From Nitrospirota bacterium (GTDB taxonomy: Bacteria > Nitrospirota > Nitrospiria > JACQBW01): a DNA stretch of 64,000 bases. Below the pieces are notes generated by a model that was given only the letters and a program-made list of their open reading frames with translations, ran no database searches and was not told where the DNA came from. The first letter of the stretch is position 1, and every line of letters begins with the position of its first letter. The DNA lies in NCBI GenBank assembly GCA_016194305.1, contig JACQBW010000001.1, forward strand, positions 1 through 64,000, in the 5' to 3' direction. A program made the position numbers and the translations under genes. Positions 7,712 through 24,804 of the stretch are shown one piece after another.

Positions 7712-8998
7712 TCAATGCCTGACCGGCGACCAGGCGGGATTTATAAAATTTCCGCTGCTTTGTGTAATCTTTTCGATTTCTGTTCCTTCCGAGGTCATCA
7801 TATATAGACTCTGTCTCCCGTCTCGATTCGAACTGAAAGTCAGATGTCTTCCGTCCGGCGACCAGACAGGACATTCGTCATCCACATTGAGAATCGAAGA
7901 AAGATTCATTTTCCTCTGGCCATCCGCTGAAATCAGACAAACATGAAGTTTTCCATCCGCCCTGCACGTGTAGGCTATCCAGTCCCCTTTGGGAGACCAG
8001 GACGGTGTCGTGTTGTAATCTCCTTCAAAAGTGAGCCGTCTCACATTACTCCCATCCTGGTTCATAATATAAATCTGGGGCGATCCGCCCCGGTCGGAAT
8101 TAAACACGATTTCTGCTCCCGTTGGAGAAAAGGATGGAGAAAGGTCATTGCCCTGGCTAAAAGTGAGCCTCTGCACATTCTTGCCCTCTTCCGTAGAGGT
8201 GAAAAGCTGAGTCTGGCCGTCAAGGCTTCTCGCAAAGACGATCCGTTTACCGTCAGGAAACCAGACTGCCGACAAATTCAACCCTCCGGAAGTGACTTTC
8301 CATCTTTTCGAGGTCGTGACATCCATAATCCAAATGTCCGGATTGCGGTCAATATACGAGGTATAAGATATTTTTTTTCCGTCCGGACTCCAGCGCGGAA
8401 AAAGATTGATCGTGTGATTCAAAGTCATGAGCCGGGCATTAAAACCATCGTAATCCATCCGGTAAATTTCTTTTGATCCTTTTGAATCCGAGACAAATGC
8501 GATTTCGGATTCTGCGATGCCGGGTTCCCCGGTCAATTGGAGGACAATCTTGTCCGACGCCCGGTGAGAAATCGGACGCAAATCTTTTATGGATCCGGCA
8601 AAGACCGTTTCCCAGATCCATTTTCCGGTTTTACCGTTAAAAAGGGAAAGGTCCATTTTAATTCTCTCCCCCTCTTTCTTCACTTTCCCGCTCAAAATAA
8701 TTTCCTGACGCTCCCCCGCAATTTTTTTTACTTCGTCGGGATTGAGAGCCAACGGCAGGGGCATATGGGAGAGATCAGTCAATTGAAATGCAAGTGACCG
8801 TTTCAAATCTGCGATCAGGACTTCTCTTAAAGTCTGAAGCTCCTGTTCGAGGCTTGACTCTGCCTGAAATCCGAGAACACCCAATGGCGTTCTCGGAGAT
8901 TCCATTCTTTCAATTTCGATGTGGACTTCACTTGCCAGAACAGGAATTTTCACAAAAAAAATAAAAAATGAAAACCACAAAAAAAATCGAACGATCAT
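7712..8998 (-). CDS. tolB: Tol-Pal system periplasmic beta-propeller TolB
   Basis: A 428-residue TolB. It has a signal peptide (about 22 residues ending near VLAS), an N-terminal alpha/beta domain, and a WD40-like propeller with repeated FPRWSPDGKKISYTS, SPSFSPTGAEIVFNS, TPSWSPKGDWIAYT and CPVWSPDGRHLTFSS blades. TolB normally binds Pal and TolA in the periplasm and works in outer-membrane constriction. It is 17 bp downstream of the TolA-like gene. No convincing ribosome-binding site precedes ATG 8998, so coupling to upstream translation is likely. Confidence 0.93.
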   Translation of the reverse strand: MIVRFFLWFSFFIFFVKIPVLASEVHIEIERMESPRTPLGVLGFQAESSLEQELQTLREVLIADLKRSLAFQLTDLSHMPLPLALNPDEVKKIAGERQEIILSGKVKKEGERIKMDLSLFNGKTGKWIWETVFAGSIKDLRPISHRASDKIVLQLTGEPGIAESEIAFVSDSKGSKEIYRMDYDGFNARLMTLNHTINLFPRWSPDGKKISYTSYIDRNPDIWIMDVTTSKRWKVTSGGLNLSAVWFPDGKRIVFARSLDGQTQLFTSTEEGKNVQRLTFSQGNDLSPSFSPTGAEIVFNSDRGGSPQIYIMNQDGSNVRRLTFEGDYNTTPSWSPKGDWIAYTCRADGKLHVCLISADGQRKMNLSSILNVDDECPVWSPDGRHLTFSSNRDGRQSLYMMTSEGTEIEKITQSSGNFINPAWSPVRH

Positions 8999-14560: not shown

Positions 14561-15457
14561 TTATTCAGAAATCAGCTTAAAGTCTTTGATCTCCTTTGCC
14601 ATATAGCGCTTCATATTCTTCAGGATCTTTTCCTCAAGCTGGCGCGCCCTTTCTTTGGAAATATGGTTCTTTTTGGCAATTTCAAGGAGTGTTAACGGCT
14701 CTTCCGACAGAATCCGGGACTGAAGAATTTCCTGATCTCTTGCATTGAGCGTCTCCTGAAAGGAAAGGAGTTTTTCATGAAAGAGACTTTTTAATTCTTC
14801 GCCGGCAATCTGGTCATCCAGCATCTCCTCTCCTGAAGGAAGATTGGCTCCAACCGCTTCTTCGCTCTCGTCATGTGCGGGCGCATCAAGGGAAACCTCC
14901 CAACTCCCCATTCTCTGATCCATCTCGACGACCTCTTTCTCTTTTACTTGAAGCGTCTCCGCTAGAAGTTTGACGTCGGGATCGTAACCCAGGGCACGAA
15001 GCTTTTGTTTTTCCTTCTGGAGATTGTAGAAAAGTTTTCTTTGCGCCTGGGTCGTTCCCACCTTCACCAGGCGAAAGTTATTAATGATATGCCGAAGGAT
15101 AAATGCCCTGATCCACCAGGCAGCATAAGTTCCGACCCGGATCCCCTTGTAGGGATCAAATTTCTTGATGGCCACCATCAAGCCAATATTGCCTTCCTGA
15201 ATCAGATCCATGACGGGAAAAGAACCCTGCCGGTATTCCATGGCAATAAAATAAACCATTCTTAAATGTGAAAGGATCAATTTTGATATGGCATCCGTAT
15301 CGCCCTGCTCTCGATAGCGTCGCGCCAGATCGACCTCTTCCTCGCGGGATAAAAAGGGATATTTCCGGATTTCAGACAGGTATTTTTTGAGCGGGTCAAA
15401 GGGAACAACACCACGATCCTCTTCCGCAACGGGATCTAAAATCGGTAGCCCGCTCAT
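14561..15457 (-). CDS. rpoH: RNA polymerase sigma factor, RpoH (sigma-32)-like
   Basis: About 298 residues of a group-3 sigma-70 family factor. Region 1.2/2 begins at DPLKKYLSEIRKYPFLSREEEVDLARRY. Region 2 has DLIQEGNIGLMVAIKKFDPYKGIRVGTYAAWWIRA, and region 4.2 has TLLEIAKKNHISKERARQLEEKI. QRKLFYNLQK matches the RpoH box, which argues for a heat-shock factor rather than a housekeeping one. I chose ATG 15457 because AAGGA sits 6 nt upstream. An upstream ATG 15481 and GTG 15490 are also in frame, but a candidate -10 (TAAAAT, 15496-15491) would place transcription start too close for them unless leaderless. Confidence 0.85.
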   Translation of the reverse strand: MSGLPILDPVAEEDRGVVPFDPLKKYLSEIRKYPFLSREEEVDLARRYREQGDTDAISKLILSHLRMVYFIAMEYRQGSFPVMDLIQEGNIGLMVAIKKFDPYKGIRVGTYAAWWIRAFILRHIINNFRLVKVGTTQAQRKLFYNLQKEKQKLRALGYDPDVKLLAETLQVKEKEVVEMDQRMGSWEVSLDAPAHDESEEAVGANLPSGEEMLDDQIAGEELKSLFHEKLLSFQETLNARDQEILQSRILSEEPLTLLEIAKKNHISKERARQLEEKILKNMKRYMAKEIKDFKLISE

Positions 15458-15538
15458 TTCATGTCCTTCAAGATCATCCATAATATGCACATTTTACCAT
15501 ATCCAAATGGTACGAATCGAAGCAAAAATGGGGACAAT

Positions 15539-15573: not shown

Positions 15574-17304
15574 ATGAATTTAAAACAAGAGATCATTGAT
15601 TTACTGGAATTGATCGGCACTTATCTGGAATTGAAGGGAGAAAACCCGTTTAAGGTCAGGGCCTTTCAAAATGCTGCGCGAACGATCTCGCTTCTTTCGG
15701 GAGATCTCAGAGAAATGATTCTAGCCGGAACATTGAAAGAAGAAAAGGGAATCGGAGCGGCTCTCTTTGAGACCATTCATGAATTCGTGACGACAGGGAG
15801 TTCATCGGTGCTCCAGTCGCTTGAAGTTTCAATTCCTTCAGGACTGCTTGAAATGAAAAAGATCGAAGGGCTCGGTCCAAAAAAAATCAAAGCGATCCAT
15901 GAGAAACTTGGGATCACCACGATCGGAGAACTGGAATATGCCTGTCAGGAGAATCGCCTGTTGACGCTTGAAGGTTTTGGCCGCAAGAGCCAGGACAATA
16001 TTCTGAAAGGAATTGAAAATCTTAAAAAAGGAAAAGAGTTTTTTCATTTTGATCAAGCGTGGACGGAGGCAGAAGCGGTTCGTAAACAACTTCACGCGAC
16101 TCAACTCTTTGATGCGATTGAAATTGGCGGAAGTCTCCGAAGGCGAAGAGAGGTGATCAGAAATATCAATCTGGTTTCATCATCCCGCCAGCTGGAAAGA
16201 GCTCTGGTAGCGTTTTCTCAACTGTCCCAGGTCGAATCGATACGTTCTCACGAAGCAACACGGGTTTCGGCCGTCCTGAAATCCGGACTGGGCGTTGAGC
16301 TCGATGTCGTCTCTCCTGAAAATTATCCGTTCGCACTTCAATATCTAACCGGAAGCAAAGAACATAATATCCGATTGCAGGAAATTGCCAGAAAAAAAGG
16401 TTTCCTGCTCAGCCCAAATGGCCTATTTAAGGAAAACTTGCCGGTTTCCTGCCAATCTGAAAAGGAGATTTACTCGAATTTGGGACTCGACCCTATTCCG
16501 CCGGAATTACGCGAAGATCGCGGAGAATTTGAAGCCGCAGGTAAAAGGTGTCTTCCCCGCCTGGTCGAATCGGATGAGATAAGAGGAATATTTCACCTTC
16601 ATACCACCCGCAGCGACGGAAGAAATACCTTGGAGGAAATGGTCAACGAGGCGGCCAGGGCGGGGTATCAATATGTGGGTATTTCTGATCATAGCCAGTC
16701 CGCGTTTTATGCCCATGGACTGAAAGAAGAAGATATCCGGCAACAACATGCCGACATCGACCGGCTTCAGAAAACCTTTCCCAAAATCCGGATTTTTAAA
16801 GGGATCGAATCGGATATCCTCGAAGAAGGTGATCTGGACTACCCTGAAGAACTACTCGCCTCGTTTGACTTCATTATTGGATCCATTCATAGCCGGTTTA
16901 AAATGACCGAAACAGAAATGACAAAACGGTTATTACGGGCGATGGATAATCCCTATTTGACGATTCTAGGGCATATGACCGGACGACTCCTCCTTTCACG
17001 CGAGGCCTATTCCTTCGACCTTGACGCCGTATTTCAAAAGGCGAAAGAGAAGAACGTCATTATTGAACTGAATGCCAATCCCCATCGATTGGATATCGAC
17101 TGGAAAGACTGCAAAAAATTGAAGGAATATGGACTCCAGGTCAGCATTAATCCCGACGCACATGCGATCGAACATATTTATTTTACCGGGTATGGCGTAG
17201 GAATAGCCCGAAAGGGATGGTTGACTTCCAGAGAGGTATTTAATACTCTCCCTCTCGGAGAAATGGAAAAAATGCTCGCGTCACGGCGTCCGGTTCACGG
17301 TTGA
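15574..17304 (+). CDS. polX: PolX-family protein: PHP exonuclease with degenerate polymerase site
   Basis: A 576-residue protein with PolX order: N-terminal 8-kDa helix-hairpin-helix region (GENPFKVRAFQNAARTI), a second hairpin (IEGLGPKKIKAIHEKLGI), fingers/palm, and a C-terminal PHP domain. The PHP metal motifs are intact: HLHTTRSDG (residues 341-349), GISDHS, GIESDILEEG, GSIHSRF, LGHMTGR, IELNANPHR and NPDAHAIEHI. In the palm, the usual GDxD is RNINLV: both catalytic Asp positions are Asn (197 and 199), and the third region reads VELDVV. Nucleotidyl transfer is therefore unlikely, while 3'-5' exonuclease or phosphoesterase activity should remain. It is read divergently from rpoH. Confidence 0.9.
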   Translation: MNLKQEIIDLLELIGTYLELKGENPFKVRAFQNAARTISLLSGDLREMILAGTLKEEKGIGAALFETIHEFVTTGSSSVLQSLEVSIPSGLLEMKKIEGLGPKKIKAIHEKLGITTIGELEYACQENRLLTLEGFGRKSQDNILKGIENLKKGKEFFHFDQAWTEAEAVRKQLHATQLFDAIEIGGSLRRRREVIRNINLVSSSRQLERALVAFSQLSQVESIRSHEATRVSAVLKSGLGVELDVVSPENYPFALQYLTGSKEHNIRLQEIARKKGFLLSPNGLFKENLPVSCQSEKEIYSNLGLDPIPPELREDRGEFEAAGKRCLPRLVESDEIRGIFHLHTTRSDGRNTLEEMVNEAARAGYQYVGISDHSQSAFYAHGLKEEDIRQQHADIDRLQKTFPKIRIFKGIESDILEEGDLDYPEELLASFDFIIGSIHSRFKMTETEMTKRLLRAMDNPYLTILGHMTGRLLLSREAYSFDLDAVFQKAKEKNVIIELNANPHRLDIDWKDCKKLKEYGLQVSINPDAHAIEHIYFTGYGVGIARKGWLTSREVFNTLPLGEMEKMLASRRPVHG

Positions 17305-17352: not shown

Positions 17353-17745
17353 TCAGTTAAGCTCTGACATAAGCATCTTGATAAGAGGGCTGGTAGCCGG
17401 AGGAAATGTAAATTCATCCATCCGGGATTTTTCTATCCAGAGATATTCGTCACACTCCAGCGCCTGACAGGTTCCGCTCTTCCATTCGCAGAAATAAAAA
17501 TGAAGCTCTACCGTCCGATCAGGATACCGGTACGTGACCGCGATGGCCTCCTCCCCCACTTTGATCCCGATACCCAGTTCCTCACGGACCTCCCGGATGA
17601 GCGTATCGGTTAGCTCTTCCTTTTCATTCTTCTTCCCACCGGGAAATTCCCAGTATCGACCCAGATGGACATTCTTCTTCCTCCGCGAAATGAGAATTTT
17701 CCCTTCCTGGATAATGATGGCCGCCGCGACAACCTGAGTACTCAT
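17353..17745 (-). CDS. (d)NTP pyrophosphohydrolase, MutT/Nudix family
   Basis: A 130-residue Nudix hydrolase with a perfect box, GX5EX7REVREELGI (GKKNEKE...REVREELGI). Upstream WEFPGGK and short length match the MutT (8-oxo-dGTP) subgroup. It cleanses oxidised nucleotides or hydrolyses a related substrate. Its ATG directly follows the thrB stop codon (no gap), so it is probably translationally coupled to thrB. A repair role would fit the nearby polX, ligA and nth genes. Confidence 0.87.
   Translation of the reverse strand: MSTQVVAAAIIIQEGKILISRRKKNVHLGRYWEFPGGKKNEKEELTDTLIREVREELGIGIKVGEEAIAVTYRYPDRTVELHFYFCEWKSGTCQALECDEYLWIEKSRMDEFTFPPATSPLIKMLMSELN

Positions 17746-22671: not shown

Positions 22672-24804
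<2,133 letters not shown>

Follow-up and report, generated by a model that had tools for sequence, protein, structure and literature searches.

The polX locus

The window, the 64,000-nucleotide stretch of Nitrospirota DNA analyzed here, carries a polX gene on the forward strand at positions 15574-17304. The gene encodes a 576-amino-acid protein, and the ORF contains no frameshift or internal stop. Domains are arranged in the order 8 kDa/HhH, thumb, palm, fingers, and PHP, with the palm at approximately residues 151-253 (16024-16332, forward strand) and the PHP domain at approximately residues 331-576 (16564-17301, forward strand). The protein was assigned to PolX by a full-length match to the NCBIfam PolX equivalog PRK08609 (511 bits, cut-off of 426), and it also matched the Pfam families HHH_8, HHH_5, DNA_pol_B_thumb, and PHP. 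The AlphaFold2 model of the window PolX had a mean pLDDT of 92.6 and a pTM of 0.77. The best solved folds identified by Foldseek were those of T. thermophilus PolX (3AUO and 3AU2), followed by D. radiodurans PolX. The palm fold was predicted with high confidence, including strands E197-203 and E240-246 (pLDDT about 93-97).

Two reverse-strand genes flank polX and served as synteny anchors. A sigma-70 family gene (14561-15490), encoding regions 1.2, 2, and 4, is divergent from polX and separated from it by an 83-bp gap. This divergent layout is kept in the sister genus described below, and common regulation of the two genes is possible. On the other side, a Nudix (MutT-like) gene (17353-17745) is convergent with polX. 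The two genes adjoin in the window, unlike in the sister genus, where ~3.6 kb carrying several ORFs lies between polX and the Nudix gene (L113:5082-8713). One short ORF in this segment (8008-8343, reverse strand) resembles a PemK/MazF-type toxin by eye.

Replacement of the catalytic triad

The original prediction, made from the window sequence, was that asparagine, encoded by AAT codons, had replaced both aspartates of the GDxD polymerase motif. Translation and alignment with Thermus PolX, one of the checks suggested with that prediction, confirmed the replacements. Positions 16162-16170 (forward strand) read AAT ATC AAT and encode Asn197-Ile198-Asn199. Asn197 (16162-16164) is at the first catalytic Asp, corresponding to T. 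thermophilus D198, and Asn199 (16168-16170) is at the second, corresponding to D200. The motif call was correct for these two residues and incomplete for the triad, since it overlooked the replacement of the third catalytic Asp by E242 (16297-16299). The adjacent Arg is D244, and E242-L243-D244 (GAG CTC GAT, 16297-16305, forward strand) thus replaces the conserved D-L-R. This region reads GVELDVV, and the third-ligand motif is VELD in the window compared with VDLR in T. thermophilus and in the sister orthologue. N197/N199 and E242/D244 lie on the expected palm strands of the AlphaFold2 model.

Canonical PolX proteins were defined by three acidic palm triad residues, which were present in 143 of the 161 aligned PolX proteins. 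The window PolX, with N/N/E, is not among them and belongs with the altered-triad proteins. Compared with the sister gene, the codon changes are two GAT>AAT, one GAT>GAG, and one AGA>GAT. A sequencing or assembly error was ruled out by the intact ORF, the several independent codon changes, and the synteny with the sister genus.

The prediction also stated that every PHP metal ligand is kept, and this held: all nine ligands (HHHEHHEDH) are present, at residues 341, 343, 373, 412, 439, 467, 498, 528, and 530.

Timing of the triad loss

The nearest relative compared, G002, belongs to another genus of the same family, and its PolX (L002) is 66% identical to the window PolX. It contains KDID and VDLR, and thus a canonical D/D/D triad. 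SDR, ferredoxin-reductase-like, sigma-70, Nudix, ThrB-like, and GlpD genes flank polX in both genomes. The survey of close relatives that had been proposed with the original prediction therefore showed that the Asn pair is missing from the syntenic sister orthologue. In a tree built without the palm columns, the window and sister PolX proteins paired with 100/100 support. Because the syntenic sister orthologue keeps D/D/D, the loss appears local to the window lineage, and the simplest reading of these sequences is that the triad was lost on the window's own branch after its split from the sister genus.

Domain-specific acceleration of the palm

Unique changes were counted at alignment columns with a conservation of 80% or more across close canonical PolX proteins. 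In the palm (30 columns), 11 changes were unique to the window PolX and one to the sister. The corresponding counts were six and two for the fingers (43 columns), one and one for the thumb (30 columns), two and three for the 8 kDa domain (35 columns), and four and three for the PHP domain (102 columns). Within the window PolX, the palm differed from the PHP domain with a Fisher p of about 1e-5, or 4e-4 when the three triad columns were left out. Identity between the window and sister proteins was 44% in the palm and 73% in the PHP domain. Among 116 canonical pairs whose PHP identity was similar, none had a palm identity that low, and altered pairs averaged 39%, although these pairs have common ancestry and the counts are descriptive rather than independent trials. 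Only the palm is clearly accelerated by these counts, which indicates relaxed selection on the palm but not on the nuclease half.

Palm changes of this kind could also be the first sign of a dying gene, with the whole of polX being lost, and no PolX match was found in G001, the other genome of the same family (82% complete). We consider this explanation very improbable. The ORF is full length and retains all nine PHP ligands, its PHP, thumb, and 8 kDa domains have evolved as slowly as those of the canonical sister, and equally altered PolX proteins are maintained in entire families of the class.

An intact dNTP pocket

The dNTP-phosphate binding motif GSLRR (residues 186-190; 16129-16143, forward strand) and the dNTP pocket motif of the fingers, YLTGSKEHN (residues 257-265; 16342-16368, forward strand), are both intact. 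The latter keeps the steric gate Y, the GS cis-peptide, K262, and N265 (residue roles taken from PMC9226535). Alignment with canonical relatives revealed no deletions in the palm or fingers. All six pocket elements were kept in only two of 18 altered PolX proteins, the window PolX and L160, and 16 of the 17 altered proteins other than the window PolX had an incomplete pocket. Because its pocket is fully intact, unlike those of these 16, the window PolX looks like an early stage of decay.

In the window PolX, all 10 conserved pocket columns were unchanged, whereas changes occurred at eight of 40 other conserved palm and fingers columns and at all three triad columns. Together with the finding that T. 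thermophilus PolX binds dNTP without DNA (PMC9226535), this distribution could suggest that the dead palm keeps its pocket under selection as a sensor, in which bound dNTP, or its absence, would determine whether or at what sites the PHP domain trims ends. We give this idea a slim chance. Selective retention was not significant when pocket and other columns were compared (p = 0.18, ranging from 0.05 to 0.30 by threshold), and the phosphate-bound metal, an aid in holding dNTP, would be weakened. Recent loss explains the intact pocket adequately, and as well as a sensor does. Continued nucleotide binding by the pocket is possible, judging from the residues retained.

Retention of every dNTP-pocket residue also bears on whether the polymerase site has been rebuilt, with E242 and D244, and perhaps N197 and N199, binding metal for weak or Mn2+-dependent synthesis and the pocket kept in use. 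Replacing D with E is a conservative change at the third position, D244 provides a new acid two residues on, and E242 and D244 are on the same face of strand 240-246. Asn can serve as a weak metal ligand. Given these acidic and Asn residues, some residual polymerase activity is conceivable. A rebuilt site is nevertheless unlikely in our estimation, as palm evolution appears relaxed rather than compensating and the acid at 244 is not common to altered relatives. In addition, D. radiodurans PolX is inactive and binds no metal despite having two acids (AEE), and one triad mutation is enough to kill B. subtilis PolX (PMC9226535).

Altered PolX proteins across Nitrospirota

Altered triads accompanied by an intact PHP site were found within Nitrospirota in two further groups of the class, in a comparison that left out the antisense translations L129 and L131. 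One group (L013-L016 and L022) has a palm insert of 3-10 residues, and another joins families f2 and f14 (L135, L137-L141, L143, L144, and L152). A palm-free tree of 58 proteins had at least seven changes of triad status, with some deep forks weakly supported. The tree, with at least seven such changes and these weak forks, suggests that the triad was lost several times independently within this Nitrospirota class. A single ancient loss common to the altered PolX proteins of the class is contradicted by these changes and by the canonical sister of the window PolX (100/100). A motif scan of genome contigs (fingers plus PELRE) favors canonical proteins and was kept out of the frequencies.

Other PolX proteins departed from the canonical sequence in different ways. 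L008 and L012 (family f9), which are sister to altered-triad proteins, have a D/D/D triad, but their dNTP pocket is changed (TGSKDYH/TGSKEYH), and Tyr or His replaces the Arg that follows the third Asp. They possibly represent a pocket-first route of decay. The order of decay thus does not seem to be fixed, since in this clade the pocket is altered in members that still have D/D/D, whereas in the window lineage the triad was lost first. A sub-clade comprising L158-L160 and L023-L025 (G042, G044, G012, G007, and G016) has QxQ in place of the PHP HxH (QQHEHHEDH), and its polymerase triad is mostly canonical. L160 (G042, C5:254949-256649) combines an N/D/D triad with the QQ PHP site, so both of its active sites look compromised from the sequence. 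One genome, G173, encodes both an altered PolX (S/E/R, L143) and a canonical one (D/D/D, L154). Many Nitrospiria genomes have ORFs of ~150-270 amino acids (for example, L029 and L030) that match only PolX residues ~5-155 (8 kDa plus HhH), as if these formed a stand-alone DNA-binding module.

Repair genes in the window genome

The window genome (2.27 Mb in 37 contigs) is about 95% complete and encodes a single PolX. Ku, the LigD phosphoesterase (PE) domain, and exonuclease III (ExoIII) were not found in this ~95% complete assembly. Endonuclease IV (Nfo) and Pol I are present, and LigA is encoded in the window at 22672-24768. Given the completeness, Ku, ExoIII, and a second PolX are likely to be absent. 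A division of labor with a second, canonical PolX was rejected, as the genome has only one PolX.

The literature suggests a role in NHEJ for noncanonical PolX. Its co-occurrence with NHEJ genes is a statistical tendency and not an obligatory trait. Because Ku and the LigD PE domain are absent, NHEJ end processing is not supported as the role of PolX in the window genome. Across Nitrospirota, Ku was found in three of 15 genomes with an altered PolX and in seven of 42 with a canonical PolX, indicating no enrichment (p = 0.71). With Nfo present and ExoIII absent, PolX could have a place in the processing of 3' ends or AP sites.

Predicted function of the window PolX

It was originally predicted that the protein had lost DNA synthesis and kept the exonuclease/phosphoesterase. 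The N/N/E triad, the relaxed palm, the constrained PHP domain, and the behavior of tested relatives support this, and the window PolX most likely no longer polymerizes DNA and retains its PHP nuclease. D. radiodurans PolX (AEE) and D. gobiensis PolX (ARE) are polymerase-dead, Mn2+-dependent 3'-5' exonucleases, and B. subtilis PolX becomes polymerase-dead and exonuclease-positive when one triad residue is mutated (PMC9226535).

We consider it highly probable that the palm site was lost in this lineage specifically and that the protein is a PHP 3'-end nuclease with its X-family domains as an end platform. The nucleotidyltransferase (palm) active site would have been lost after the split from the sister genus, and PolX would work as a PHP-domain, Mn2+-dependent 3'-5' exonuclease or 3'-end-cleaning enzyme, possibly also cutting AP sites. 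The 8 kDa, thumb, and fingers domains would be retained for binding DNA at nicks, gaps, or frayed ends and delivering the 3' terminus to the PHP active site, with gap filling left to Pol I and sealing left to LigA. Within this scheme, our best guess is that the PHP domain cleans 3' ends, and we infer that the X-family part serves as a platform for DNA ends. The original prediction included the idea that the X-family scaffold may now only position DNA ends; this idea is not new and is close to a proposal made in PMC9226535.

Comparison with known PolX proteins

A polymerase-dead PolX with a kept PHP domain is an already published phenomenon. Noncanonical proteins make up ~27% of prokaryotic PolX and were tested biochemically in Deinococcus (Prostova et al. 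2022, PMC9226535). The dNTP-pocket residues are degraded in most of them, and dNTP-site substitutions and palm or fingers deletions are frequent but not obligatory. The main text of that study does not mention Nitrospira or Nitrospirota. In a published survey, conservation was higher for the PHP site (95%) than for the polymerase site (75%); the survey-level account giving these figures describes no intermediates with an intact dNTP pocket. New here are the lineage-local loss, the palm-specific acceleration, the intact dNTP pocket, and the repeated loss of the triad in one class. The predicted inactivated PolX and its syntenic canonical orthologue form a matched natural pair, which makes the order of polymerase-site decay testable, as well as the use of the X-family domains to the PHP nuclease. 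Repeated triad loss in one class with no link to NHEJ speaks against the view that such proteins are generally kept for NHEJ.

The window PolX resembles the described noncanonical PolX proteins (PMC9226535) in its altered triad, in its intact HHHEHHEDH site, in the conservation of the 8 kDa and thumb domains, and in its five-domain layout. It differs from them in that its palm and fingers are free of deletions and its dNTP pocket is complete, in the apparently recent and lineage-specific nature of the loss, and in a genome without NHEJ genes. D. radiodurans PolX (PDB 2W9M) has a related fold and is a polymerase-dead PHP exonuclease, as is predicted for the window PolX; its triad is AEE rather than NNE, its palm is shortened by a 7-residue deletion, and its dNTP site is degraded (PMC9226535). 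Both T. thermophilus PolX (PDB 3AU2/3AUO), at 37% identity, and the sister orthologue, at 66%, share the domains, dNTP pocket, and PHP fold of the window PolX, and both have D/D/D where the window PolX has N/N/E.
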